In this document: in pieces, positions 4,480-58,979 of the stretch | Layout: every line of letters begins with the position of its first letter | Numbering within the stretch: position 1 is the first letter of the stretch | Translations under genes and position numbers: made by a program | Notes under the pieces: model-generated | The model's database searches: none | Told to the model about the DNA's origin: nothing | The model's input: the letters and a program-made list of their open reading frames with translations, nothing else | From: Chaetoderma sp. LZ-2023a | Taxonomy: Eukaryota; Mollusca; Caudofoveata; Chaetodermatida; Chaetodermatidae | Assembly: GCA_034401795.1 (NCBI GenBank) | Contig: CM067367.1 | Location: forward strand, 49,275,363 to 49,339,362 | Direction: 5' to 3' | Length of the DNA: 64,000 nt

Positions 4480-6160
4480 TGATGCACTCTCGTGCAGTAT
4501 AATTAATGTATTTTATAGCCTGCGATATGAAAGATGTATTTTATGAAAAAACCGTTCATCAGTGATCAGCAGCGTAGTTTCCAAAAAATGGTAATAATAC
4601 TAGGACAATTACTGTGTCTGGGTACATACACATGTTGCCGCGTGTATAAATGTCTAGCCAACTGTTTAAAATAGCAAATGTTTTGAAAATTTTATAATTA
4701 AATGACTGCTATGACTGCTATGACCACTCCTTAAATACGATAGATACATGATTATTATCTATATAATATTATACATACATCATCGCTTAGTTTACCTATA
4801 TATTACTTGTGTAACGCAACGCTCCGATTTAAAAAAAATTAAATGACTAGGGCAGTTTCAAAATATCTTTTTAACCATGAAGGCCAACCTAATTAATACG
4901 TTAAACAAGACAAGGGTGCTCAGGACATCATTATTCATTAAGGATGATGGACACTGTTCGACACCAAAACAATAACGCGCAGCCTACACCAATAGTGTTA
5001 CACTAGGTGCGCGCTGTCGGCCATTGTTCTAGTATTGATCAACTTGTCACAACCTGACAGATACACATCAATCATTCGGACAACTGAACAATTGCACTTG
5101 ACCTCCTGGCATATACACACCAATCATTCTGACAACAGAATAATAGCACACCGCCGCACACATGACCTACACGACCTCATTACACCTGTAAAACCAATTA
5201 AAACCCATTAATCAAATTAATTATGCATTAATTAGCATTGTCACGCATGAGCGATTTAGAACAATAGCGTACAGCTTCCCCTAGACTACATATTCATCCA
5301 TGCCAGTTACACAGCATATCTGGTACGCCGTTTTTGAGAAACACATGCCGTACCGTTGGTAAGCCAAACTGTGGCAAAATAGATTAACATAAGGTGAGAT
5401 TGAGAAATGCAAACTTTACTCTCAGTTGACACGCTGGTGTATAATGCGTAATAGAAAAATATCGTACCAGGACAACACGGAATAAAACATACCATTGACT
5501 AGGAACAGGAGAGCATAAATGGAGATACTCAATGAAGAAGAATTTGTCAAAGCTGTTGCTGGCTTAGTCAGTAACGACTTTCAATCAGTTGCTAGAAATA
5601 TCTTCTACAAGTATTCCTCGATTGAATGTCCTGCTGATTATTGTGAGAACAGCTAGAAGAAAGTTGGTAAAATGACGATTTTCATTCAAATAGTTTTCAA
5701 ACTGTTATCTAGTGGCACTTGTTTGGTCTCCTGAGAATTGTTACAACAATTTGAAGGAAAGTTGATGCCGCTATGACTAGCAGGAAGTGTCAGTAAACTC
5801 GTTATAGCAATATTTAGCATAGCACGTGTCACATGTAGGCCTACCATCGAAAACACACAACCAGAATCGAACTATTAAACTCATATTAAGCACTATCGAG
5901 TAACGTGGCATCTTTGGTGACCTTGCAAGTCAATAGTGCAATGAGTATCATTAAAGCAAATCTCACATAATGATATTCAGATGATAGAATTTGAGACACA
6001 TAATTTTAGCTTTATATCATGTCGATAACGAACGATATTCAGGCTTGGGTTTAGTAGCTAAATGTTGATAGATTTCTACAGCCTATGATGGCTGTCATGC
6101 TTTACTTTTAAAAAAATCAGAAGAAACTTAGCGAGCCTGCCTAGGTATATATATACGCTC
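4480..6160. other. Unassigned DNA
   Basis: No supported exon or RNA gene. Short reading frames exist on both strands but carry no recognisable motif. Confidence 0.45.
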
Positions 6161-18212: not shown

Positions 18213-18457
18213 TGATAGTAGGGCAGATATGTGAAAAAGATGTTCCATTCTGGCAGAAAGCATACAATTTGGCATATAGGTGGTTTAACGTATCCTGATC
18301 ATAATTAGATGCGGTACCACGTGATTCTACCAAGGGAACCAATTCAAAATGGCGGATTCAAAATGGCCGCCTTCCAAGCGGAAAATCCGCATTACTCAAG
18401 CTCTAGACGGAGTAGAGAGATGAGATTAATGTCAAATTAGGGTTTATAGCAATCCTT
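18213..18457 (+). repeat. Left terminal inverted repeat of element 1
   Basis: Reading inward it contains GGGCAGATATGTG, GTTCCATTCTGGCAGAAAGC, TTTGGCATATAGGTGGTTTA, CGTGATTCTACCAAGGGAA, CAAAATGGCGGATTCAAAAT, GGCCGCCTTCCAAGCGGAAA and TTACTCAAG. All of these recur as the reverse complement at 21810-22061. Confidence 0.93.
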
Positions 18458-18689
18458 CCATAGCGACCACCTGTGTTTGATGTCAAAAGACGGTGGCTCT
18501 TTAAGATGTGTTATCTGAAAGATCCATCGCTTGAGAACAAAAGCAATATTGCATCTAGAAATAGTTTAAATTACTTGATTTCTTAATATCAAACCAAGTA
18601 ATGGTCGTTATAGATACGTTCAATTATCCTATTAGAGTATGCAAGGCTATACATGATGCTGTTGATTGTTGAATCATGATTCACAGATG

Positions 18690-18790
18690 TCACACGCACT
18701 GTGCACCGCATGAGCACAACTGTGTACAAGGTAAGTTGGATTTATAGCATTTGCATCTGCCAATGCAATTACTTTTGCAAGCACATTTCA
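18690..18790 (-). other. CXC-like cysteine cluster in element 1
   Basis: The last 33 residues read LVKCACKSNCIGRC, KCYKSNLPC and TQLCSCGAQC in order, giving a C-x-C-x4-C-x3-C-x-C-x5-C-x3-C-x-C-x3-C pattern like one half of a tesmin/TSO1 CXC domain, which binds DNA and zinc. Here it probably supplies DNA binding to the nuclease. Confidence 0.6.
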
Positions 18791-19189
18791 CGAGTTCCCG
18801 GCATGCCTTAGATGCGTCTGCAAGCAAACTCCATTGCGGTGACCAAGTGTCTCCATCTCTGACCCAGCCCCAGTCAGCTGACGATGGCGTTTTTGCATTT
18901 GCGTGGAGTGATTGGCCCCAAAGATGACCTGCCTGTAACGCAGCACGTTTGGTGTGTTGCAGCAGAGCTGCACTGGTCGGATGAATGTTTTCTAGCTGCC
19001 TGTTGCCAAAAGCGAAAAGCCGTTTTCGTGCCTCATTAACCTTTGACAATGGTGATGTGCGTTTGTACAGTAGTACGACAAACGTCTCCAGCGTGTCCAT
19101 GCCATTGTCACACAGAGACCCCGGGGCATCAGACAGTCTCCTAAACAGTGACTTGAATAGATCCGAAGTCCTCCAAACTTCCCATGCTG

Positions 19190-19500
19190 TCTTCTTGCCA
19201 ATCCCACAAAATGCAGACACAGTGTCACACCCAGAGAAAGCATGCAAAAATAGCAGTCCTTGTGACGCTTCTGCACCCAAATCTGTTGCAATGCCATGAG
19301 CTGATACATAGTGGAAAGTCTTCCCATGGCCAAATGCGACGCAGAGATCACATCCATGAAGAAAGTTTGCTGTCCATATGGCTAGGACTACAACGTCTGT
19401 ATCTGTAGCATGAATCATTATTGTTCGATAGCCTTGGTGATATGCATGGAAGGCGTGGAGAAACATTCTACCATCTGCTTCATCTTGCATGCATGGCGCG
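19190..19500 (-). other. FEN/XPG-type acidic motif set (nuclease core) in element 1
   Basis: In the 281-residue frame starting at 19535, EAD lies at residues 19-21, TDTDVVVLA at 44-52, SGCDTVS at 101-107 and GIGKK at 111-115. The flap-endonuclease pattern (EAEA, then SEDMD, then GCDY followed by the helix-hairpin-helix GIGPK) has the same order and similar spacing. EADGR differs from the EADTR I expect for the family at one non-catalytic position. I infer a metal-dependent 5' nuclease fold. The N-terminal XPG-N part cannot be placed because of the deletion. Confidence 0.65.
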
Positions 19501-21625
19501 AGTTGTGAGACGTCATGCTCTGGCCTCATCAGCACGTTTTATTCACATGTTGTGACGAGTATCTTTCCTTCTGGTAGCTCGAATGACCCCAATGTATGTG
19601 CGAGAAAGGTGATGAACTCTGTTTTGTTTGCATAAACAAGCAGCTGGATTCACAACTGTGTACGTCTCGGATAATGGATGGATGGTGGTGGATTTTTGTA
19701 CAACGTTTGGTGTCAATTGTTCAAGAGTTCGAATGACACCAGTATTTGTGTCTGAACAATGTTGTGTTAATAAGATTGCTGTCCCATGGAATGCAGTTCG
19801 TGCTGATGTGGATGTAGGATTATGGTCTATGTTATCAAGGTTCCCAGTTGTGAACAGATTACCATGCAAGTTAGTCGGACAAACAACCCCATCCGTTTTA
19901 AACATATCTATAGCCTTATTTCCTACATCAGTCGAGAGCTGCATGACGAGATCGTAGGATACTGAAAGTCCATGTCTGAAGAGTTCATCCACAAGGTCCC
20001 GCTTTCGCGTTTTGGCATGAATTAGTAGGCCTAGGTAGAGTGGCAATGCTGTTTCACGATCAGGATTATGGCGAGTTCCCATACTGCTGTTACGCGCTCT
20101 TTTATTGGCATTAAAGATGAGTAGCTGGGTCAATGACGACACTTCCCCCTTGATAGTTTGGGAATTCTCATTTTGATTATGAATGTTGGTACCGCCAAGT
20201 ATCATCTGAACTAAAGTAACAAGTGATTGAGGTAAGTTGTCATACTGGTCAGCATCAAGTGAATCCTTGCAATCATACTTAATCTGAAAAATCTCTTTGC
20301 GGACTATTTGAGCTGCCCTCATCAACGCAATTGCGTCACTATCAGAATCATTTTTGGTGGCTAGTAATAGAGCATCGCCTTGGCTTTCTTGAATGTGAGA
20401 ATCACTTCATAGTTACTCTTGTTTGACTCCACATTTGGCATTTTCGACAAGATCTTTTCCTTCAACCTGGTAGAGTTAATCCTACTTGGCATAGCACCAC
20501 CAAGTTGTTCAAGACGGCGAGTGTATAATCGTGTTAAATCAGAAAGTTTAAATATGCTGCCAATAGGATGCTCAGAGGCTTGATAATCTTCCATGTATGA
20601 TATTAGCTCTGCAAGAGCAACAGAGTCAGGTTTCATATCGTCAGCAATATCAGATTCACTTCTCGAAAGAGATCTATGTCGTGTGTATAGTTTTGTCAAA
20701 CAAGTCTTGTGGTAAATACCATCCAATGCTGTCATGTCTCCAGATGACATTTTAGCAAGAAGTTTTGTATCTCTCAGTTCTGTCACCATTTTGCGTATGT
20801 TTTGGTCGAATTTTGCTGTTGCGGCTCTATGAATGTCATGCTCTATCGGTTGGTCACAGAAAAAGCACAGTGGTTGAGTGGGGTAATTTATACTTGGCAT
20901 AGTGAATGAAACCTCAATCTAGATTTTACTGGTGACCTGAGATCCTCGCTGGATTCCAATTTCGCATTTCTTTTCACGGCGCGATCAACCCGAGTCTGGC
21001 TACAGAGATGCCAACAAGATTTGTGCCACCTAGCATAGTTTTCTATGAGCGTCTCCGCAATTCCAGATCCATCATTCAACCTACATAGATCCAGGTATGG
21101 TGGAAGGGCATGGAGTTGCTGTAGCTTATCAAGGTTATCAGCTAATGACCTATAACTCATAATCACATTGTCACGATGTGTATTACTACATGGGTCTATG
21201 AGATGCTCCGTTGTGGACTGCTGGCAAATAACACACAGGGACCAGTTCGTGTGTGCTAAATCCACTGTGGGATCAGATGTCAATTTCACTTTCATTGACA
21301 TATTGACTTGAATGCGAGAATATAATAGGCTATTGTCTCTGTCTATAAGCAGAGCACAATACGCGTGTGTGTGATTGCTATGCAGCTATGTATTCTCTTG
21401 ATATATTTAAATAGTCAGTCTGAGTTTACGAAACTACAATAATTATATGGAAATCCACAACGAAATAATGCTTGTCGAAGCGAGGGGCTGGCATACAATT
21501 ACTTTTACTGGAGAAAACGTGCAGACCAATTGTTTTGAGTAGCGAAAACTTATTTCTAAAATGTTCCGACCGGAACATGTGTGTACACACGTTTAGCAAT
21601 AATACTACTAATTTACAAAGGTTAC

Positions 21626-21679
21626 AACAACAACGACGACGACGATGACGACCACAACAACAACAACAACAACAACCTC

Positions 21680-21715
<36 letters not shown>

Positions 21716-21765
21716 TATAAAAATAAAAATAATAATAACAATAATAATATATATTTTCAGCATGT
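21626..21765. repeat. (CAA)n/(AAT)n trinucleotide tract
   Basis: CAACAA repeats with CGA interruptions at the left and AAT at the right. It lies between the 5' end of the element 1 gene and its right TIR. Confidence 0.95.
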
Positions 21766-21809
21766 TTATCTATTTAGACTATTGTAATGGGTAAAATCAT
21801 AACCAGTGA

Positions 21810-22061
21810 CCCAAGAAACCCTTAATTTGACATCAATTCTAGCCCTCTATTCCATCTAGAACTTGAGTAATGCAGATTTTCCGCTGGGAAGGCGGCCATT
21901 TTGAATCCGCCATTTTGAATGGATTCCCTTGGTAGAATCACGGGGCACCGCATCTAATTATGTTCAGCATACCTTAAACCACCTAAATGCCAAATTTCAT
22001 GCTTTCTGCCAGAATGGAACAGCTTACCTCAAATGTGTTACATATCCGCCCCACTAGAGAG
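21810..22061 (-). repeat. Right terminal inverted repeat of element 1
   Basis: Reverse complement of 18213-18457, well preserved from AAACCCTTAATTTGACAT (inner) to CATATCCGCCCCACTA (outer). A small indel between GATATGT and GTTCCATTC makes the right arm a few bases longer. Confidence 0.93.
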
Positions 22062-32927: not shown

Positions 32928-35900
32928 ATGACTTCCCTCTCAATTGTTACACTAAATACGAGGGGTTGTCGTGACTCTTTTAAAAGATTTCGTATTTTTA
33001 ATGAACTTCGCAAAGATTTATATGCCGATATTGTGTTTCTCCAGGATAATCACACAATTCAGCCGGATGAGTCGTTATGGCGACTTATATGGAGAGGTCA
33101 AGCTGTCCTTTCACATTTTAATACAAATACAGCTGGTGTTGCTATAATATTTAAACCCAAGTTAAATGTAAATATCATTGAAACGATCACAGTTGCTCAT
33201 GGAAGAATCCTACATGTCACAGCAAACATACATGGCACCTATTTTTATTTGATTAATGTTTACAATCCCACGGATTCTCATGACAAATTGAAATGCATAG
33301 ATATGCTAAAAACTCATATTTCCACATTGTCCGCACCATATCCTATAATATTAGGTTAACTGTACACTTGATTGTGAGTTAGATAGAACATCAGCAACAG
33401 AACCACATCCTCCAGCTGCGGATGCGTTTAAATCTGTAATTACAAGCAATAGTCTTACTGATGCATATCGCTGCCTCTATCCACAACCTGAAATTTTCAC
33501 CTGGCACAGGTCCGATGGGACTGCATCCAGACTTGATCGTTTCTACATTCATAGTAATTTTGGACTGTTTTTAAGCAGTTGTTCCATAATTCATTGCACC
33601 AATTCTGACCATGATTATGTTAAAGCAATAATTCAGCTTAAAAGTGTAAAACGGAAAAGCGCATATTGGTGCATGAATACCGCTGTGTTGAGTGAAAGAA
33701 ACTATGTGCTTTTAATTAATGATTTCTGGCATGGTTGGCAAGGAAAAAAAATGTGATTTTGAATGTCTACAGGATTGGTGGGAATTGGCCAAAAAGCATA
33801 TATGTATTTTATCACAGCGTTATTCCCGAGAACGAGCTGTCCTTTTCCGTGAGCGACGATCAGACTTACAAGCTGAAATTGATCAGTTATCGGTCAAAAT
33901 TCCAAAAACAAATGAATTATTAGAGGTAATTAACCAAAAGCAATCTGGATTAACAACTCTCCTCAAAGAGCAAAATAGGGTTGCTTGGATTCGATCGCGA
34001 TTCCATCATATAAATGAATCAGATAGACCTACTACATATCTTTTTAACTTTGAGAATAAACGTGTGATGAATAAAACTATTTCACAGTTGAAGATCCCGA
34101 CCGGTGAAATGGTTAATTCTGATACGGATATTCTGAGCCACGCCTCTGATTTCTATGGTGAATTATATGCGAAGTCCAGCTCATGCAAAGTGTCTGAAAA
34201 CCTGCTTTTATCAGATCTTCCTAATCTAAGTGAGCTTTCCAGAATTGAGTTAGATCGGGCCCTGAGTTTACCAGAGCTTATTGAAGCTGTTAACCATCTC
34301 ATTAACAACAAAGCTCCTGGAATTGATGGACTACCATCGGAATTTTACAAAACCTTTTGGGAAACTATCGGTTCTGATCTTCTTGATGTTTTTAATGAAT
34401 CAATTGAAGACATGTTATTACCTACTTCATGCAGGCGAGCGATTGTGACATTATTACCTAAAAAAGGTGATTTAACCAGTTTAAAGAACTGGAGACCTGT
34501 ATCGCTTTTATGTGTAGATTTGAAAATATTTTCCAAGGCCTTGTATAATCGTATACGTACAGTACTCGCAGAAATTATTCACATAGACCAAAGCTATTGT
34601 GTACCAGGATGTAAGATCTCCAATAACATTAGGTTGATAACAGACGTCGTCGAGTATTCAAATTTCATGTCGTTACCTCTTGGTGTTGTATCCCTAGATC
34701 AGGAGAAGGCGTTTGATAGGGTAAGTCACCAGTATTTATTGAATACCTTGCACGCATTTGGCTTTGGTGATTTTTTTGTTAAATGCATTCAGCCTCTTTA
34801 CAATGACACTTCGTGTTTACTGAAAATAAATAATTTGTTATCTATGCCTGTTTCTTTTAACCGTGGTATCGGACAGGGTTGCTTCCTATCAGGCGCTTTG
34901 TACAGTATCTGTATCGAACCATTGTTAGCTAAGATGCGCTCAAATAACTGACTGAGGGGAGTGGCCCTGCCTGATATCTCGGGTGAAAGGGTTTCTTGCT
35001 TAGCTTATGCTCATGATATAACCGCCGTGTGTACATGTAATGATGATTTTATTAAATTGCGAGATTTGATACATGTATATGAGTCTGCTTCCAACGCGAA
35101 AATTAACCACTTAACGTCAGAAGGCTTTTGGGTTGGTTCCTGGAAAGGGCGTATTGACAAGCCTTTGGGGTTAAAATGGAATAGCAATGGATTACAGATT
35201 CTCGGTGTTTATATTGGAAATTCTTTGGATTTTTGTAAACAAAATTGGGAAAATCTTGAAAATGAAATCAGCACACAACTTCTTAACTGGCTCCCGTTAT
35301 CAAAAGCCCTATCGTTTAGAGGTAGGATTACTATTACTAATCTGCTTGCTGCTTCTAAGCTTTGGCATAGGTTAGCTGTTATCGATGTCCCTGGTAATAT
35401 TTTAAATGCTATTAAAAAACTGTTAATTAGCTTCATCTGGTCTGGAAAGCACTGGCTTCCCAAAGAGTTACTGTTTCTGCCTTTAGACAAAGGTGGGCAA
35501 GGACTCGTGCATTTAGAACCTCGGATACGGACATTCCGTATTCAGTATGCACAATCCTTTATGAACTAATTCGCTTTTCATCCGTGTTTCAGCTTTAGCA
35601 GCTACTTTCTCAAGCAGGGACATAATCTGAATTACGATTATCAGATTTTCTCTATTCAATTGGATGTAAAGATGATTCGTGTTATACCTATCTTTTATAA
35701 GAGTGTGCTCAATTCTTGGTTTTTCTTCAATGTTATGAGAACATCGCCTCCAAGCTGTATGAACCACTGTTTCGGAATCCTTTGATCAAGAATATGTCCA
35801 CTGGATTTACTTTTTGCTACGAAGATTTTATAAGTGCGAATGCTACCATTCTAGCTGATATTTTGGTAAATGATAAACAAATTGCACTTGAAGACGTACT

Positions 35901-36751
35901 CCTTAAAATTGGCAACATGTCTCGACGATTGCTTCAAATAAACTTGAACACTCTATGTGATAGCAAACCCAATGCATTGTTTGAGCTATTAGATCGACCT
36001 ATTGACATTCCCAGGTCAGTATACAATTATGAATTATCATGCAATATTAATGATGACTCGGTTTTTACTGTATTGATACCATCTCTTTGCAAGAAGGAAC
36101 TGCACAAGATGTTACTCAATGATTTCACATAATACCAAAAGTAACATATGGAGAGATCTACTTTCTCTAAATATTGATTTTACAGATAATTGTCTCTGTT
36201 TTTATGAATATCCGTGTACGTACTACGAAGGAGATTTGTCATGGAAGGCTTTCCATGGGGCACTCAACACTGGTGTTTTTCTATATAAGGCCGGATATTG
36301 TATTAATGATAAATGTGTTTACTGTGGCGATCGTGAAGATTTAGCACATCTTTTTATAACATGTTCACGTCTCCAACCACTTTTGTGTGCTGTTAGACGA
36401 GCAGTTCTATTTTTAACACTGGCTGATGAATTTAAGCCTGAGAATTATGTCAAAGGCTTTCCATGCCCCCATTGTGCGTCTAAATCTGCACGTAAGATTA
36501 AACATCGTATATGCAAATGGATCATGGCAAACGCTAAAATGGCTACCTATGTAACGCGGCAGCGTCTACTGGATGGCAATGGTCAGACGGACGCCCTTCG
36601 AGAATGTATTTCTCGACTTCGAGCTCGTGTGACTATCGAATTTAAATACCACCAGCTAAATGGGTCACTAGAAAACTGTACAATTTGTTGGGCAATTGAC
36701 AACTTCGTCTGTAGTACTGAAGACGGTATTTCAACATTTAATGGTATTTAG
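32928..36751 (+). pseudogene. LINE ORF2: endonuclease / reverse transcriptase, disrupted
   Basis: The start MTSLSIVTLNTRG is typical of an AP-like endonuclease. The usual QETH catalytic Glu is Asp here (LQDNH), and the GGDFN motif is lost to a deletion of about 8 bases at 33354. The RT domain is 33719-35100: APGIDGLPSEFYKTFW, LLPKKGDLTSLKNWRPVSLL, SLDQEKAFDRVSH, then GIGQGCFLSGALYS. A TGA at 34949 interrupts the frame, which continues unchanged into SCLAYAHDITAV. There the YADD box is YAHD (codon CAT at 35012), so the first catalytic Asp is lost. Further stops or shifts occur near 33745 (A8 run), 35567 and 36120. The C-terminus has CVYCGDREDLAHLFITC, a C-x2-C...H-x4-C zinc-finger-like end usual for Tx1 elements. 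Confidence 0.9.
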
Positions 36752-42100: not shown

Positions 42101-42469
42101 ATTGCATCAGGAGCTAGGAGAAGTTTGTAGGTAATGGACCTATGCCCCCTCCCTCTAACTGCCAGCCATATCTAGTTGACTCCAGAAGATGCGGTTTGGG
42201 TACTATATCATTATTCCATTTTAGTGCCTGATAATGGGTTCGACATATATTCTGTGTTAGAGCTGCCTTTGGTGGGGGTAGACGCTCTGCATGTGCTTGT
42301 TTTTCAGTGAATAACTCCCAACGAAGTTCCCCTACACTACTTATTGTTGTACCGGGTTTACACAACTGATACACACACTTTTCGACAGCATTCAGAGTGA
42401 CATCAAGAGGCTCTTCACTACGTTCTAGTTGGGTGAATGCGGTAATCACATCATCATCTGTAGCTAGTA

Positions 42470-42800
42470 ATAATTTCCAGAAACCTTGTTTCCCCTTCCC
42501 AGCAAAGCTGCTAGTTGTGTCTGCATCCAAAAAAAGCATGAAATCCCGGCAAAGATGCAGCAATATTAGCACCTAGGGCTTTATAAACGGATTCCAATGC
42601 GATAGACCGTCGTTTTATACCTGTTCCAGTAACAAAGTTAGTAGCTTGACATAATTTAGGAGACCTGCGGACAGCAAGTATAAAAACATCTGTATCAGGA
42701 GAGTGAATGCCAATCTTTCTTGCACCACGGTTAACAGTAGCATCCACAGAATGAAGTATTAATCTTGTGTCCGCTTACTCGTGGTTACAGCTCAAATGCT
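42470..42800 (-). other. FEN/XPG-type acidic motif set in element 2
   Basis: Read across two disruptions, the order is NHE-stop-ADTRLILHS, then IHSPDTDVFILAVR, then LPGFHAFFGC, a frameshift, then DTTSSFAGKGKQGFW. The set (E)AD, PDTD, GC-D and GKGK is the same as in element 1, in the same order and with similar spacing. The conservation of motifs between two diverged copies supports a real catalytic site in the ancestor. Confidence 0.65.
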
Positions 42801-45800
42801 CCATTCTGCCATGATTCGATAATACTTGCTCGCGAGAGGTTACGACCACCAGTTTGGATGAACCACTTCATATTTCCAAAGCTTTGCTTACAAGGTAGAC
42901 TGTCAATTCATCTTTATAGTCATTCACAAACTTTCAAAAAATGTGCAGGAAGTAACCTGCAAGATCTGCACAGGTAACAATTGATGGTGGTTTGCCCATT
43001 GATTGGCCATTTGCCACACCATCCAAAATTGCCACAGTGGACCCATTTATTGGTTTCGCTGTATGTTCTATTGATGTTTCAATCTGTGTTTGCCTTGTAT
43101 ATTCCTCTACTAGTGACATCAATTTGCTTTTATCTGTGCAACGAAGTAATGTCCCGTTAGTACAAACATTGATCTGGAAGATATGAAAACCCATATGTCG
43201 CAATAGTGTTTTTTTCAAATTTATCTGAGGTCGTGACCTTGCAACAATTGAGTAATCTGGCAAAGGGAGATTGTTCATCGTTTGTCAGTTTGTATTTTAT
43301 TGGCTTGCATGCTGTTTTCCATGTTTGCAACCTTGCTTTCTTCATTGGGAACCATATATTAACTTTTCCATTCACAATCCGTTTCTCTACAAATGTCTGA
43401 TACATCTCAGCACCGATATCTACATGCATCAATATTTGTTCTTGTGCTTTCTGTGGCATAACTGCTTTGATTTTTAGATTGATTAGATCTTCTCCATCAT
43501 ATAGGAAAGGGTTTCGAAATTTCTGAATCACACACTGACGCTTCTTAATGTTATGTTCCTGTCTCTGCAGCACAGTTGCGGATAGATCGCGGTAATTTTT
43601 CCTTTGTTCAACAGATGTTCCAGCCATTTTAAATGCTTCTTCTGACAAACGAGATAACTATAGGGCTACCAAGAAGAATCTTGTACGGGCACTATCATTC
43701 TGTGTAATCCCAACAATGCCTCCCATCACTTCCATCCACCGATTCAATTGTTCTAGCCCATGATCCCTGCCAATCTGGCAAAACGGCCGTCCGCTTTTGT
43801 TGACTACAAAGATTCCTTTCTCGAGTTCTTCCCATATAGCAGGATCACTGTCTTTTACCATTTTCATGTATGATAAGTAGACAGCAACCATCCTGGCATA
43901 TTTCTGTTTGTCGAACATAAAGAAGTATTTGCACAGTTCCTCTAGAGATGCCAAGTGGAGTTCCCAATGACCCTCGTGTGTTGCTCTAATAAAACGCATG
44001 ACAGGTGAAACTAATTTTAGGTAATCACTGACAAATTTATACATTGGTCGTTGTTCTCCGTGCAGTTTATCAAATGTCTCAAGTTTCTCTAGCATGTTTT
44101 GTTCCTCTAGAACTGAAATAGTTTCCTTCTGAATAGCTATTATCTGCTTACTATCTGATATAGCACATGCACTGTTCACTTTTTCTGCTTGTGTCTGACA
44201 CACGTTATGGAGCTCTGGTTCATGCTTGAAGAATTCAGTTAGAAATAACTCATAAAATGCTTGTAATGTAATTAGGTTAGGTACCATGGCTCTTTTCATA
44301 TGCTTTGCCTCTAGAATCTGATGCACAGTTGCACAAGAATAAATATCAGCCTCACTCCAGGCATCGTCAATTCCACTGTTCTCAGTTAAGCTGCCAATGG
44401 TCCGAAGAGCTGCCATCACTGTGAGCATTTGCCCAATACTCAATACCCATTGGTGCTTACAATCACTTCTCGTCTCCAGCTGCTTCGCACGTTCATATAA
44501 CGTCATGTCCATGGTTATTACAGTCTTTCTCTCTGAACCAAGAACAACAGCATTAATTTTCTGTGTTTGCTTTAGTGCTGTTTGCAATGTGGACCACTCA
44601 TGTGGTGGAGCGCCATATGTGGTAGGGCACAGCCGTGAGTTAGTGGATATTGTGCTGTGACAAGTAAGTTGTAAGCTGCCCATGTTGGTATAGAGAGTTC
44701 AGATTTTTTATCAGGATCCACTGGTATGTCAGAGTGTTCTACCAGGCTTGTAAGGTTTTCACTCTTACCAGTGCGAACCATTGACCGAGAAATTAACCAA
44801 ACCATATCATGCATGTGACTGATGTTAATACCTGATTGCTTGGCACCAATGGTGGATGTGGAGGCGGTTGGGACACTTGATTTTGGTGTTGGTGCTGTAC
44901 ATGGTATTAGTTCAGTAACTGTACTTGGAATCACTTTCAATGACCTATCTCGTCCCATCTCAATAGGCATCTGCAATGCATCTTCAACTGGTTTAAGTGT
45001 ATTGTAGCGACTCTGACCATCGTTTCCTTTTCGTTGAAAGATTGCAATAGCAGTGGCATGCAGTGTATTCCTTCCATCTGGGGTATCTTCCAGGACGTCT
45101 GAGTTATCAATTGCAAAACATATAAACATGTCCTTAGGTGAGATGTAAAGACAATTTTGCTGCGACATACGTTTGACAACAACATTTGCCATTTGCGTTT
45201 CCAGTCTGAGTATTCTACTGTAGTCAACAGATAAACAAAGCCATGCAATAGGTTAATAAGACGTTTACTTCTAGTTGCTTGGTGTAAAGCTACACCTACT
45301 GCTAGTACCTGCAGATATTCACGGTGGCGTCGAAACAATGTAGTTTGGGATGCTGGCGTATACGTTATTTGGCGATCAGTGGCATAAGCATACATTATGT
45401 TTTGTGCATGTGTTGAGATATGTTAATCTAAATTAGCTTTCATTGCCTCTGTAGCAACTGCGTTGGTTGGACCTTGTGATATCCAACGTAGAATGGTATA
45501 TAGACTGTGTGGAATATGCTTTTGGATATCATTATCTAGCAATGTACCATCAAATTGCCATCAATCTGTACAAGCTGCCCCAATGTCCTTCCGTAATGCT
45601 TGTGCTGCACGGTAAAGTGATAACATATCTCCTTCAGCATCACCCTCGTCTACTGCCTGTTCAACAGGTAAATCATGTGCCCATTTTGATGGTACTAATT
45701 CTGATTCGTTTTTACGCGATGTACTTGTGAAATTTAAATCAGGTATATTTTCTATTATATTTCTTTTGAGAGATCTTCTACTGCAAGGATAATTTTTGAC

Positions 45801-46569
45801 GCAATTGTTATGCAATATGTTTTCATAGGTAACTTCAAGTGAGACCATATGATTATTTGACCCGTTTTTGCGAGAAGAGAAAGAACCTCTATATCAGCTG
45901 GAATAACGTTGGCCGTTTCATGTTTTGTAGTAGTCCTTGGGTGTAATTTTGTCTCGACATTTTTAACCCAGCATGTAAGATGATATTTTATGTCAATTGC
46001 TACATAATCATTAGGATCAATAGCGGGACTGATGTGAACCTTTAGACTTTCATCATCATTTTGCTCTACAGCTTTACGTTGTTTATAGCCCATATTATAG
46101 CTAGCAATTTTGTGCATTGGTCCACATCCAACAGTGGCGCCTTTTGGGCAAAAGAAACACAGTTCTCGAGCAAAGGGAGTACAAGACTAACGTGTGTATC
46201 TGCTGATCTCTTCTGGTATTGATATAGATACAGCCTTAGAAGAACTTGACCGAACAGCTGTTATATGCAGTTGTGATTGGTCACCACTACACAATGCTTT
46301 CTGGTATCTTTACCGAACACGCTCCAATTTCAGTTTATGACAGGTTTCTTGATAACATATGCGATGCCATGACGCATGTTCTTTTCTCAAAAGCTCTGGA
46401 GTAACACAATGTAATCGTTTAGAATTATCAGGGTAAGTTCCATCTCCATACTCTGCTCGTTCATGTATGAACAAGTTTTATATAATTCAAGTGTTGGCGA
46501 TTCTATAACTGCTACACCGTCATCGTGTTGGCAAATAAGACAAAGCCAATATTCAGTCTCCTAGCGGGA

Positions 46570-47104: not shown

Positions 47105-48426
47105 GTATTTTATTGCATATCAGTGCCGTACGACCACACCTTGAGTATGGATCCAGCTCATGGATGACAGCAGCTAAATCTCATCAACAGAACCTCGACA
47201 GAGTACAAAACCAGGCACTGCGCATCATCACTGGTGGAATGAGATCAACAACAATAGAAAAAAATGGAGCAGACAGCAGGCACCCCCCCCCCCCACTTTG
47301 CAAAGGAAGGGAATGCAAAGCACTGTCCAAGCTGCAAAGTTCAAATCGTTCAACAACCACCCGATGAAGATCAGGCAAGCACAGCTGTCATCAGGAAGAC
47401 TTAAAAGATCAAGTTTTGTGAAAGAGACTAAAGCACTTCAAAGGAAACACCAAGAAACGTTGCCAGCACAAATAGAAGACCCAAACCACACCCTTGATCC
47501 TTCACCCTGGGAAAACAAACTAGAGAGCATAGCTATTCGCACCACAGTACCTCTTCTCACAACCAAAGATGAACACAGTGATGTGAGCAAGAAGGCCCTG
47601 ACCTAGCCATGCTGGAAGAAATGTACCCTCAGGAGACATGGATAAGGATCTACACAGATGGATCAGCCAAAGATGCAATTAGGAGCGGAGGTGCCGGACT
47701 GCACATACAGTATCCAAACGGACAACATGAGTCAGCTGCAATACCGACAGGCAAACACTGCACAAACTACAGAGCTGAAGTCGAAGCACTGGTCCATGCA
47801 GCTAATACCATCAGCAGAACAGCAGACCCTATTGCACAGATTGTCTTTTTATCTGATGCCCGCTCCGTCTTTGAGGCTATCACCAAAGGTAAGCTGCCAC
47901 AACTTGAAGAAGCACTACAAACCATCAAATGCTTTCGGATAGCATTGCAGTGGATCCCCTCACACTGTGGAGTCGAAGGAAATGAGGACGCAGACAAGAT
48001 GGCAAAGGTGGGTGCAGAAGAGAATCAGACAGAAAACATGGTTACCCATACAGAGATGAAGACTATCATCAAGTCACTCTATAGAACACCTCAATCAGAA
48101 GATGCCTACCAACATCTCTCGAGGCCAGAGCAAGTGACCATTTTTCGTCTCAGAACTGGACATAACAGACTAAACCAACACATGTACAGGCGGTTCCACC
48201 TTGCGACATCGCCCGCTTGTCCTTGTGGAGAAGCAGAACAGACCACAGAGCACATACTTCAATGTTGCAGTACGTATCAGCTGCTGAGAGATGAGATCTG
48301 GCCTTTGTCAACCTCTTTTCTTGAAAAGCGGTATGGGCCTGTGGAAGAACTGCAGAAAACCACAGATTTCATCTTGAGAACGGCTCACCAAGTCTGATAC
48401 CAGCGATCGAAAAGAAGAAGAAGAAG
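47105..48426 (+). mobile_element. I/Nimb-like LINE 3' fragment with RNase H, nested in element 2
   Basis: 5'-truncated inside ORF2, 3' end intact with a terminal (AAG)n tail typical of such LINEs (GATCGAAAAGAAGAAGAAGA at 48407). It is inserted between the gene and the right TIR of element 2, abutting the TIR's inner edge. No target-site duplication could be assigned. Confidence 0.8.
47120..48397 (+). pseudogene. LINE ORF2 C-terminal part: RT thumb remnant, RNase H, Cys-rich tail
   Basis: The frame begins SAVRPHLEYGSSSWM and RVQNQALRIITGGMRST, the hallmark region after the RT domain. A C12 run at 47283-47294 shifts the frame, and a single-base loss near 47606 shifts it again. The final frame (47609-48397, 262 residues) holds RNase H: YTDGSAKD (Asp), YRAEVEAL (Glu), LSDARSVFEA (Asp) and IPSHCGVEGNEDADKMA (His, Asp). 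The tail ACPCGEAEQTTEHILQCC is a C-x-C...H-x4-C motif. All four RNase H catalytic positions look intact, so the copy is comparatively young. Confidence 0.88.
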
Positions 48427-55819: not shown

Positions 55820-56099
55820 TGTAGCTCGCGGGCTATCGTCGGGTAGTTCCAGCACGAAGTACCCACCCGTCGCCCCACACGTGCACGACGAATGAGGGGG
55901 CTGGTTAACTCCGAGTCTCAAGGTGCCGGATCCACGGACGTCGCTCTGCGAAATACATGGACCGGCTCCTAAGGCTGGTGGAACTCAATCATTCCAATGG
56001 GGCCGTGCGACCATTGCCTCTAAGATTGAACTGCACGGTGTCAGCCCAACTATTTGTGTCACCGGTGTGTCTTTCCATTCAATGTAACTATGAAGAATG

Positions 56100-56101
<2 letters not shown>

Positions 56102-56196
<95 letters not shown>
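56102..56196. repeat. (AT)n microsatellite in the left arm
   Basis: About 47 AT units. It has no counterpart in the right arm. Confidence 0.97.
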
Positions 56197-56198
<2 letters not shown>

Positions 56199-57096
56199 AA
56201 AATAACAGTTTGTCAAACAAGGGTCGATCGTTTGACAGTAAATGAGCATATACTATGATACATAAAGTAGAGCTAGCTAATGGACTTTGCACGTGGGGTC
56301 GCTGGAGGTACCGCACAGACTCGTAAATCCTCAGAGGTATCCCCGCAAGGGAGGCATCCGGACAAAGAGGAGACTGACTAACTTAATATACCCTATTATA
56401 CCTTCATAATACAAATGAAAAAGACTCCTGATATTATGAGAGGGATATGCCTCGTGTGGACTCTGGTTACCTAGATGCTACTGGTTGGTGCGAGAGGTAA
56501 TAGCCTCGCGTGGGCCTCCGTCACATGATATCTTGCTTATGCGCGAAGAAAGTGCCTCACGTGGGCCTCCATCTCAGGAAAATGCCTTCAACGCTGAAGC
56601 AGAGGAAATGAGCTTGCAAAAAGGGCCACTCTTTTGTTCAACAAAAGTGCAAGGGAGAAAGACCATCCTAGTGAAAAATATACTTAACGTGATGCATACT
56701 GGTTTGCATGAAGATGGGGCGAGCGACTCGCGGATGATTCACTGCCTTATGTCATTCCAAGATACTTCATTGGTAGGTGCCACTTTTATTTATGCGGGCC
56801 TTCTGCCATTCCTAACCTACCATTTAGGTTTTGGAAACGAGAACAAGTTGAGGACGCAAGTGGCCGAGATTCCTACCTATCATTATACAGGGTTATCCAA
56901 CGGGCGCAGATGCTCTGCTTCCCATAGGTTGCCTTAGAAAGCATCTACCTCCATGGACAGTGGCGTACATGTTACTTCACAACGCATCTGAACTGGTTGA
57001 GACTCGAGATGCCCTGCTTCATAACCACATAACACATCACTGGAGGATGGCTACATTTTAGCCAAGCAAATTTTAGGACTGACATATCGTTACGGT

Positions 57097-57112
57097 GGGG
57101 GGGGGGGGGGGG
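57097..57112. repeat. G16 homopolymer
   Basis: Sixteen G residues. At the matching place in the right arm (about 61670) the sequence is CGATAACGATAGATC with no such run. Confidence 0.95.
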
Positions 57113-57964
57113 TAGCGAGACAAATATCCACTGCGAGTGTCCTTCCCGTAAGGGCGTGGCAGCTTCCAAGATCCTGCCCAGACACTGCAACGAGTTGGAT
57201 GGAGATGCGTGTCTCGTCCGTCACTAATCCTATGGACTTAACTATTGACCTGGCGTTAGGTTTATGTTCCAATATGCCCAATATGTACTGCGTGCCGGAA
57301 GTAAAATATCCTACCATAATGATAATTAATAACTACATGTTTCGCAGTGCTTTCCTCCCTTGGCAAAAATGTCTAGCTACTAAGTATCCGAAGACACAGT
57401 GGGAGATGCATGTAAACCCACACTTTGGCCATCACTGCTCGAAAACCTCCGATAGATTCCCAGAGTCAGACCAGTACAACGTGCGAGTGGGATATCCAAA
57501 CAATTGAGAAGCCTTGCGGCTGAGTGGATCGTGGAAAGAGACAATTACTTAATACATATGAGGCCCTGAAGGTATTTGGCCAATTTTGCACACCCTTGCT
57601 GGTGTGCGGGGTTACATTACCGCAACAGCCGGAAAAGAGGCATACACTATGTGTCTCCTAACGAAGAAATTGTCCCTAACCACTTTCAGCCTATCCTACG
57701 GAGCTGAGTAGTCAAGGTTAGTCGATAGCATTCCGGGCTCAATATATAGAGCATGGTCAGCGACCTCAGTGTAAAATTGTTGGTGGCGGGAATAAATGAT
57801 GCATATATTGCTGCTGTAGTATCTCCTAGCATACTGCGGTACAAAGTTTTACATAAATAAACAAAACATATGAACGGATGGCTACTTGCCATATACTTAG
57901 CTAACCATTGCAATTGAAATAATGTCACAGTTTTTACAGTTTGATTAGATGAGGTAGTAAATAA

Positions 57965-58069
<105 letters not shown>

Positions 58070-58979
58070 CTAATAACCTAATGTGGTGCGGTTAGTTAAG
58101 CACCTACAGTAAACAAGGATAATAAAAACAATAATAAAGAAATCATAAGTTGCGGTCCGAAGACCGGTGCAGTACCTCTTAGTCATCAGTAGCCTTTATA
58201 GACGTAAATTTATGACGGTGAAACATATTATGCATAGCTACTCGAGTACCTAGTAATTACTTGGATGGAACAGGCTACTATGTTACTGACATTGAGACGC
58301 TACATACAGATAGCGCGAGTTGACACGTTCTCTTGAGGATGGAAGGTTTCCGCATGCAGATCCCCGCACCTGGATTCCATAGATAGCTCTCCGCATGCTG
58401 ACTCCACGATGATATGGTACAAACTCAGGACGGTAACATAAAGCAATGAAGTAAAGTCTACTAGACCATCTCTATAGCTAAATCAGGAATTAGACTGTGT
58501 GGAGAAAGTTCTCCGTCCGGCGATGGAAGCATGAAAGTTAAACATAACCCAATAACAGATAGGGTCACTATATATAATATTTCTATGCATGTACATATTG
58601 AAGCATACAGTGCAGGGTACGTCAGATAGCTCTTTCGGCGCACCAGGCAAAGTCTACTTGGGCGAGGTAAAAAGGTTACAAAGGTGGCTGCACGACATGC
58701 AGTACAGCAGTTTGATCTCCACTTTCACGTGGTTGGCAGATCCGGTGAGTCATCCACCAAGAAACATCGCTGCTCTACATTATGTAGAAGTCTACATACT
58801 GGGTCCGAAGACCCTCCCGCAGAAAATTCCGCTTATTGATCTTCGCAAATTGGAACCATGATTTTAGTTTGTTATTGCTCACGGATGGCCATCTTGGATC
58901 ATCAAAAATTGTACTTAATGTGGGTTAGCCGAGAACTGCTTTCCGGAGTGAGCTGAACTGAAAGCTTTGCGGAACCAAG

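Follow-up and report, generated by a model that had tools for sequence, protein, structure and literature searches.

AcademX is reportedly a lineage of the Academ superfamily, a placement attributed to Kapitonov and Jurka 2010 and Kojima 2020. The nuclease of AcademX elements is of the XPG type. A literature search found no paper tying Academ to XPG, and a single paper that names AcademX. In the available part of one report AcademX and AcademH are placed in the same superfamily; AcademX elements have target-site duplications of 3 or 4 bp and AcademH elements of 9 or 10 bp, and this difference seems to be related to the nuclease encoded by the former and the helicase encoded by the latter (PMC10045372). 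An excerpt of a second study describes a bivalve-specific amplification of Academ, with a mean length of 5565 bp (PMC10294476), and an excerpt of a third lists Academ among the superfamilies with a DDD/E transposase (PMC9587614).

The element described here lies in a 64-kb stretch of DNA that was analyzed as a whole (the window). It is a decayed copy of a cut-and-paste transposon, which most likely belongs to AcademX within the Academ superfamily. The name Academ was assigned by comparison with the published description of the superfamily and is used here in this sense.

Structure of the window element

The longest inverted pair in the window is an ungapped pair of 209 nt (18237-18445 and 21817-22025), which is 89% complementary. 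When gaps were allowed, the pair extended to the arms listed in Table 1, and 204 of 230 aligned bases matched, with 11 additional gap positions. The inverted arms are real and far above chance, and the first-pass annotation had described them correctly as arms of about 240 bp. The copy begins with TAGTAGGGCAG at 18216 and ends with CCGCCCCACTA at 22056, just inside the limits 18213-22061 that the annotation had given. The EAD, TDTD, GCD and GxGKK motifs and the CXC-like cysteine tail that it had read on the minus strand were found again in the 281-codon frame, and the acidic motifs do follow the order of FEN1/XPG nucleases.

The same annotation had described a gene boxed by the arms. A gene does lie between them, but only the two ends of a longer gene are present and about 1.8 kb are missing. 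The gene pieces are spread over four open frames (137, 179, 260 and 281 aa), which do not share one reading frame. The segment that is absent from the window copy is present in L012:3902-5709, a full-length copy. The deletion removed the second half of a candidate DDE core, of which the first candidate position alone was retained, and deprived the nuclease of its two N-terminal Asp motifs. The designation as an autonomous-type element was not upheld, because little of the transposase-like core and only half of the nuclease remain in the window copy. A comparison of the flanks revealed no target-site duplication. The window element is a dead, decayed copy, which is internally deleted and therefore non-autonomous, and which is otherwise ordinary.

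Table 1. Positions of the element and its parts in the window
Feature	Position	Strand	Basis or remark
Whole element copy, 3841 bp	18216..22056	.	alignment limits common with other copies, copy ends
Left terminal inverted repeat (gene's downstream end)	18216..18445	+	inverted-pair alignment
Right terminal inverted repeat (gene's upstream end)	21816..22056	-	inverted-pair alignment
281-codon frame with the second half of the nuclease (FEN/XPG-like), ending in a CXC-like cysteine tail	18690..19535	-	
EAD motif in the 281-codon frame	19473-19481	-	
TDTD motif in the 281-codon frame	19395-19406	-	
GCD motif in the 281-codon frame	19224-19232	-	
GIGKK motif in the 281-codon frame	19191-19205	-	
260-codon frame, middle region; retains the first candidate DDE aspartate region (LDNID...FHGTAI)	19543..20325	-	
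179-codon frame; second zinc-finger-like motif (CFFC...)	20361..20900	-	
137-codon N-terminal frame; first zinc-finger-like motif (CVIC...WHKSC)	20888..21301	-	
Junction of the internal deletion (about 1.8 kb lost relative to the full-length element)	19637..19638	.	comparison with full-length copies
Left flank tga	18213..18215	.	no match with right flank gag at 22057-22059

Further repeats were seen elsewhere in the window. Three segments on the plus strand (33719-34951, 36119-36751 and 47609-48397) gave reverse transcriptase, zf-RVT and RNase H matches and are probable remnants of retrotransposons. Inverted pairs of about 100 bases (89-97%), in several registers, were found between 1309-1430 and 56076-58072; they probably belong to a tandem or dispersed repeat.

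Copies, ends and insertion sites in the genome

The element matched at least 121 stretches in its own genome (2.44 Gb, 2753 contigs), a lower bound that was obtained by scoring the best 40 of 1690 candidate places. Both ends could be read in four full-length copies, i.e., L012 (5647 bp), L014 (5718 bp), L021 (5776 bp) and L023 (5811 bp), and the full-length element is about 5.7 kb long with terminal inverted repeats (TIRs) of about 290 bp. The first-pass reading as a TIR-bounded DNA transposon was supported, and other copies have the same order of TIR, gene and TIR.

A typical copy has the ends TAGTRGGGC...GCCCYACTA. Constant target-site duplications had been proposed as a check of the transposon reading, and of the 24 copies in which both ends were read, 19 indeed had flanks with an exact 3-bp match and none had a 4-bp match. 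In 5000 random re-pairings of the flanks, the mean number of matches was 1.65 and the maximum 8. The count covers only copies whose ends were retrieved, among the at least 121 stretches; it leaves out seven loci of which one end or no end was read (L007, L013, L016, L025, L026, L027, L047) and two with a degenerate left end (L011, L020). The five copies without a 3-bp match are the window copy, L002, L005, L041+L042 and L023. In the case of L023 a further left end lies upstream, and its flank, ctg, matches the right flank.

Empty sites in relatives were a further proposed check. Here the outcome was partial: paralogous empty sites were found for two copies, L010 and L018, within the same genome. 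The queries were the joined flanks of seven copies, together with most of those of an eighth copy, and the best 40 of 15423 candidates were scored. At least 13 places matched across the join of L010 and at least 27 across that of L018; among the matches listed there was no empty site for the other copies. One empty place was inspected for each of the two copies, and in both the duplication was present once. The empty place of L010 has an 8-bp difference five bases past the join. A TA target-site duplication, which the TAGT...ACTA ends had suggested, was also considered. It was dropped because the 3-bp matches lie outside the TA and because both empty sites are without TA.

The genome also contains a FEN1 gene of the host elsewhere (L053), so that a FEN-like host gene or pseudogene might have been trapped by chance between inverted repeats. 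This is extremely improbable, because many copies with 3-bp duplications combine the TIRs, the ends and the gene, and because hardly any similarity to the host FEN1 can be detected.

The copies of this transposon family differ in their internal deletions. When 27 loci were compared with L012, internal gaps longer than 1.5 kb were seen in 20 of them. The other seven were L012 itself as the reference, L014, L021, L023, L025 (small gap only), and L013 and L016, which were partly covered. The deletion endpoints mostly differ among copies; one endpoint near position 5151 of the L012 element recurs in L009, L010, L020 and L022. L018 and L027 share both deletion endpoints (2410|5160) and have different left flanks, which suggests that this deletion derivative moved with help from elsewhere. 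It was considered whether the deletion of the window copy is common to L002, and this was rejected after the junctions were found to differ. The internal deletions would fit gap repair that was interrupted after excision. Within the left TIR of L023 there is an apparent inverted copy of the right end together with some flank (L023:3550-3940), which looks like a product of template-switch repair. In seven pairs of sequences within the family, the codon-position counts revealed no third-position excess that would point to selection, which is expected for decaying copies and is uninformative about an active family.

Transposase-like core and FEN/XPG-like nuclease

The whole gene was not found in one open frame in any of the six copies of the window's family that were examined (L012, L014, L021, L023, L025, L048). 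The longest parts were a frame of 961 codons in L048, which starts in the second zinc-finger region, spans the candidate DDE core and reaches the first nuclease motif, and a frame of 506 codons through the nuclease in L014. Long open frames, counted from stop to stop, were present in more distant families, with 1611 codons in L049 and 1565 codons in L050. In both proteins zinc-finger-like motifs, candidate DDE core, FEN/XPG-like nuclease and CXC tail follow each other in this order on a single chain. L049 has TIRs of about 350 bp on both sides, starts with TAGTAGGG and ends with GGCTA, and is flanked by "ata" on both sides; its nuclease region lies at L049:4176-5657. Identity between the window's family and the other families in the comparison is only 22-29%. 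When the genome was searched with protein queries, there were at least 75 matches with L023 as query, at least 88 with L050, and at least 117 with a second relic from the window, and many of the matches have long open frames.

This second relic (42114-46186, minus strand) is a gene of the same kind, distantly related and in a more advanced state of decay. It has a weak DUF6589-like core (E 0.004), an ILDGVANGQ motif and a DADTTSSFAGKGK motif, and long inverted repeats were searched for around it and not found. A further observation concerns the subterminal motif TTCAAAATGGCCGCC, which together with a nearby ATGGCGG is similar inside the TIRs, at L049:274-309 and at 18343-18371 of the window; the TIRs of the two families otherwise look different.

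Three acidic positions upstream of the nuclease, and separate from it in the full-length proteins, were invariant across four families (D79/D82, D254 and E468 of alignment A3). Judged from this conservation, they may form a DDE transposase core. The region around them in L051 matched the Pfam family DUF6589 (PF20231) with 46.2 bits (cut-off 27, E 3.5e-12). The matches of L050 (E 2.5e-05) and L049 (E 0.069) were below the Pfam cut-off, and L048, of the window's own family, had no DUF6589 match in the Pfam scan. A literature search found no mention of DUF6589. The relatives with long open frames suggest that this unnamed Pfam family corresponds to a portion of the transposase core in elements of this kind.

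The nuclease follows with an Asp motif ([IVL][IVF]DG), [FW]DxY with SLK, EAD, DxD, GxD, a Lys-containing motif (GIGKK in the window's family) and the CXC tail. This order was kept in eight chosen sequences of five families (alignment A5), in which seven positions matching FEN acidic residues were invariant, as was the Lys after the second Asp motif. The motif names and the residue roles are those established for FEN nucleases. The alignment contains 8 of the 14 nuclease sequences at hand (L023, L052, L060, L061, L063 and L064 were left out) and also omits L012, L021 and the window, whose sequences are partial; changes at acidic positions occur in three of the six left-out sequences, namely L023, L061 and L064. 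The host's own FEN1 served as FEN reference for the motif comparison; the window's family has the same distance between the last Asp and GxGxK as this protein.

The A5 profile reached a score of 38.9 with the FEN motif chain, and none of 1000 column shuffles reached this value (mean 5.7, sd 6.4), although the highest of them came close with 38.4. The controls were much lower, with 2.1 for the reversed profile and 4.2 for the DDE region. In the best path the first block was placed outside the expected first Asp motif, and it is therefore the later blocks, above all DxD and GxD, that carry the support from the profile. The scores of single sequences were modest: they ranged from 42.5 to 61.5 for the families and from 19.0 to 41.8 for eight unrelated controls, so that the highest control nearly equals the lowest family, and an archaeal FEN scored 181. 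They were reached by 7, 2, 25, 9, 24 and 1 of 300 shuffles for L014, L025, L049, L050, L057 and L058, respectively.

HMMER revealed no significant FEN/XPG match in Pfam or among PDB sequences, and with HHalign the only similarity was weak, local and not significant; it lay on the GCD region (E 0.21, 0.26). The nuclease is therefore called FEN/XPG-like and not a member of the FEN family. Comparison of the window frames with Pfam, PHROGs and PDB sequences yielded nothing useful, and no relative of the 281-aa frame was found in viral and prokaryotic contigs. A search of the genome with Pfam XPG_I hit three places, none of which is a transposon place listed for these families. FEN1 relatives for a deeper reference profile were not found in viral and prokaryotic contigs; phages gave weak partial matches in seven records, and none with an archaeal query, while plasmids gave two records, of which one archaeal FEN was used as reference and no further one was found. 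The weak Pfam matches, one member each of 8, include NYN_YacP (E 0.24) beside 5_3_exonuc_N (E 0.11). Together with the lack of a significant FEN profile match and the modest single-sequence scores, this would suit a PIN-like or other metal nuclease that is not a true FEN/XPG relative, with motifs that converged or are distantly related. We consider this unlikely, because the motifs are ordered as in FEN1, GxGxK follows the last Asp at the same distance in the window's family as in the host FEN1, and the profile score lies above all shuffles. A FEN/XPG-like nuclease is thus the preferred reading. The FEN-type catalytic core of the first-pass annotation stood as far as FEN-like motifs are present, but it is not the sole catalytic candidate, as a separate candidate DDE core lies upstream.

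The catalytic roles of the two domains and the division of labour between them may be pictured as follows. One large protein contains two N-terminal zinc-finger-like motifs, the candidate DDE core, the structure-specific FEN/XPG-like nuclease and the CXC tail. The zinc-finger-like motifs would probably bind the element ends. The DDE core would free the 3' ends and join them to the target DNA with a 3-bp stagger, and the FEN-like domain would cut or trim the 5' strands at the junction of element and flank, or would process gap intermediates. Tentatively, and with less than even confidence, one polypeptide can be proposed to have two nucleolytic centres: the 3' ends would be made and joined by a DDE core, and a FEN-type nuclease would cut the 5' strands and thereby determine the short stagger of 3 bp. 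If this is true, the whole DUF6589 family may represent the transposase core of such elements. The portions of the literature that were available did not explain the presence of a flap-type nuclease in AcademX elements; relatives from this genome whose open frames are long would offer a test bed for this question.

Comparison with known systems

The nuclease shares several features with the FEN1/EXO1/XPG superfamily, i.e., the order of the acidic motifs, the invariant Lys, and, in the window's family, GxD followed by GIGKK at the spacing of FEN1. It differs from this superfamily by a divergence too great for significance with Pfam, PDB sequences or HHalign, and by its fusion with a CXC tail and a transposase-like core.

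The first-pass annotation had assigned the element to an undescribed or unassigned group. That the group is undescribed is probably wrong, because AcademX is a named lineage which, in the available part of the report, has a nuclease and duplications of 3-4 bp (PMC10045372). The elements could also belong to a TIR superfamily distinct from Academ, in which a DDE transposase and a FEN-like nuclease were fused independently. The identity of only 22-29% between the window's family and the others leaves room for this, as does the comparison with Academ by description, without a reference sequence. It is nevertheless improbable, somewhat more so than the PIN-like alternative for the nuclease, because nuclease, 3-bp duplication and element length all agree with what the available parts of the AcademX and Academ reports state (PMC10045372, PMC10294476).

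Assignment to AcademX is therefore preferred. AcademH differs, as far as the accessible text of its description goes, by a helicase and duplications of 9-10 bp, compared to 3 bp here (PMC10045372), and no helicase family matched in four element proteins scanned against Pfam. The full-length copies, with 5647-5811 bp, resemble the Academ elements of bivalves, for which the excerpt mentioned above gives a mean of 5565 bp (PMC10294476). Unlike AcademX, the window copy itself is deleted and has no duplication. The likeness to AcademX lies in the TIRs on a multi-copy element, in the FEN/XPG-type motif set in five families, by motif only, and in the combination of an encoded nuclease with a duplication of 3 bp, compared to 3 or 4 bp in the part of the AcademX report at hand (PMC10045372).
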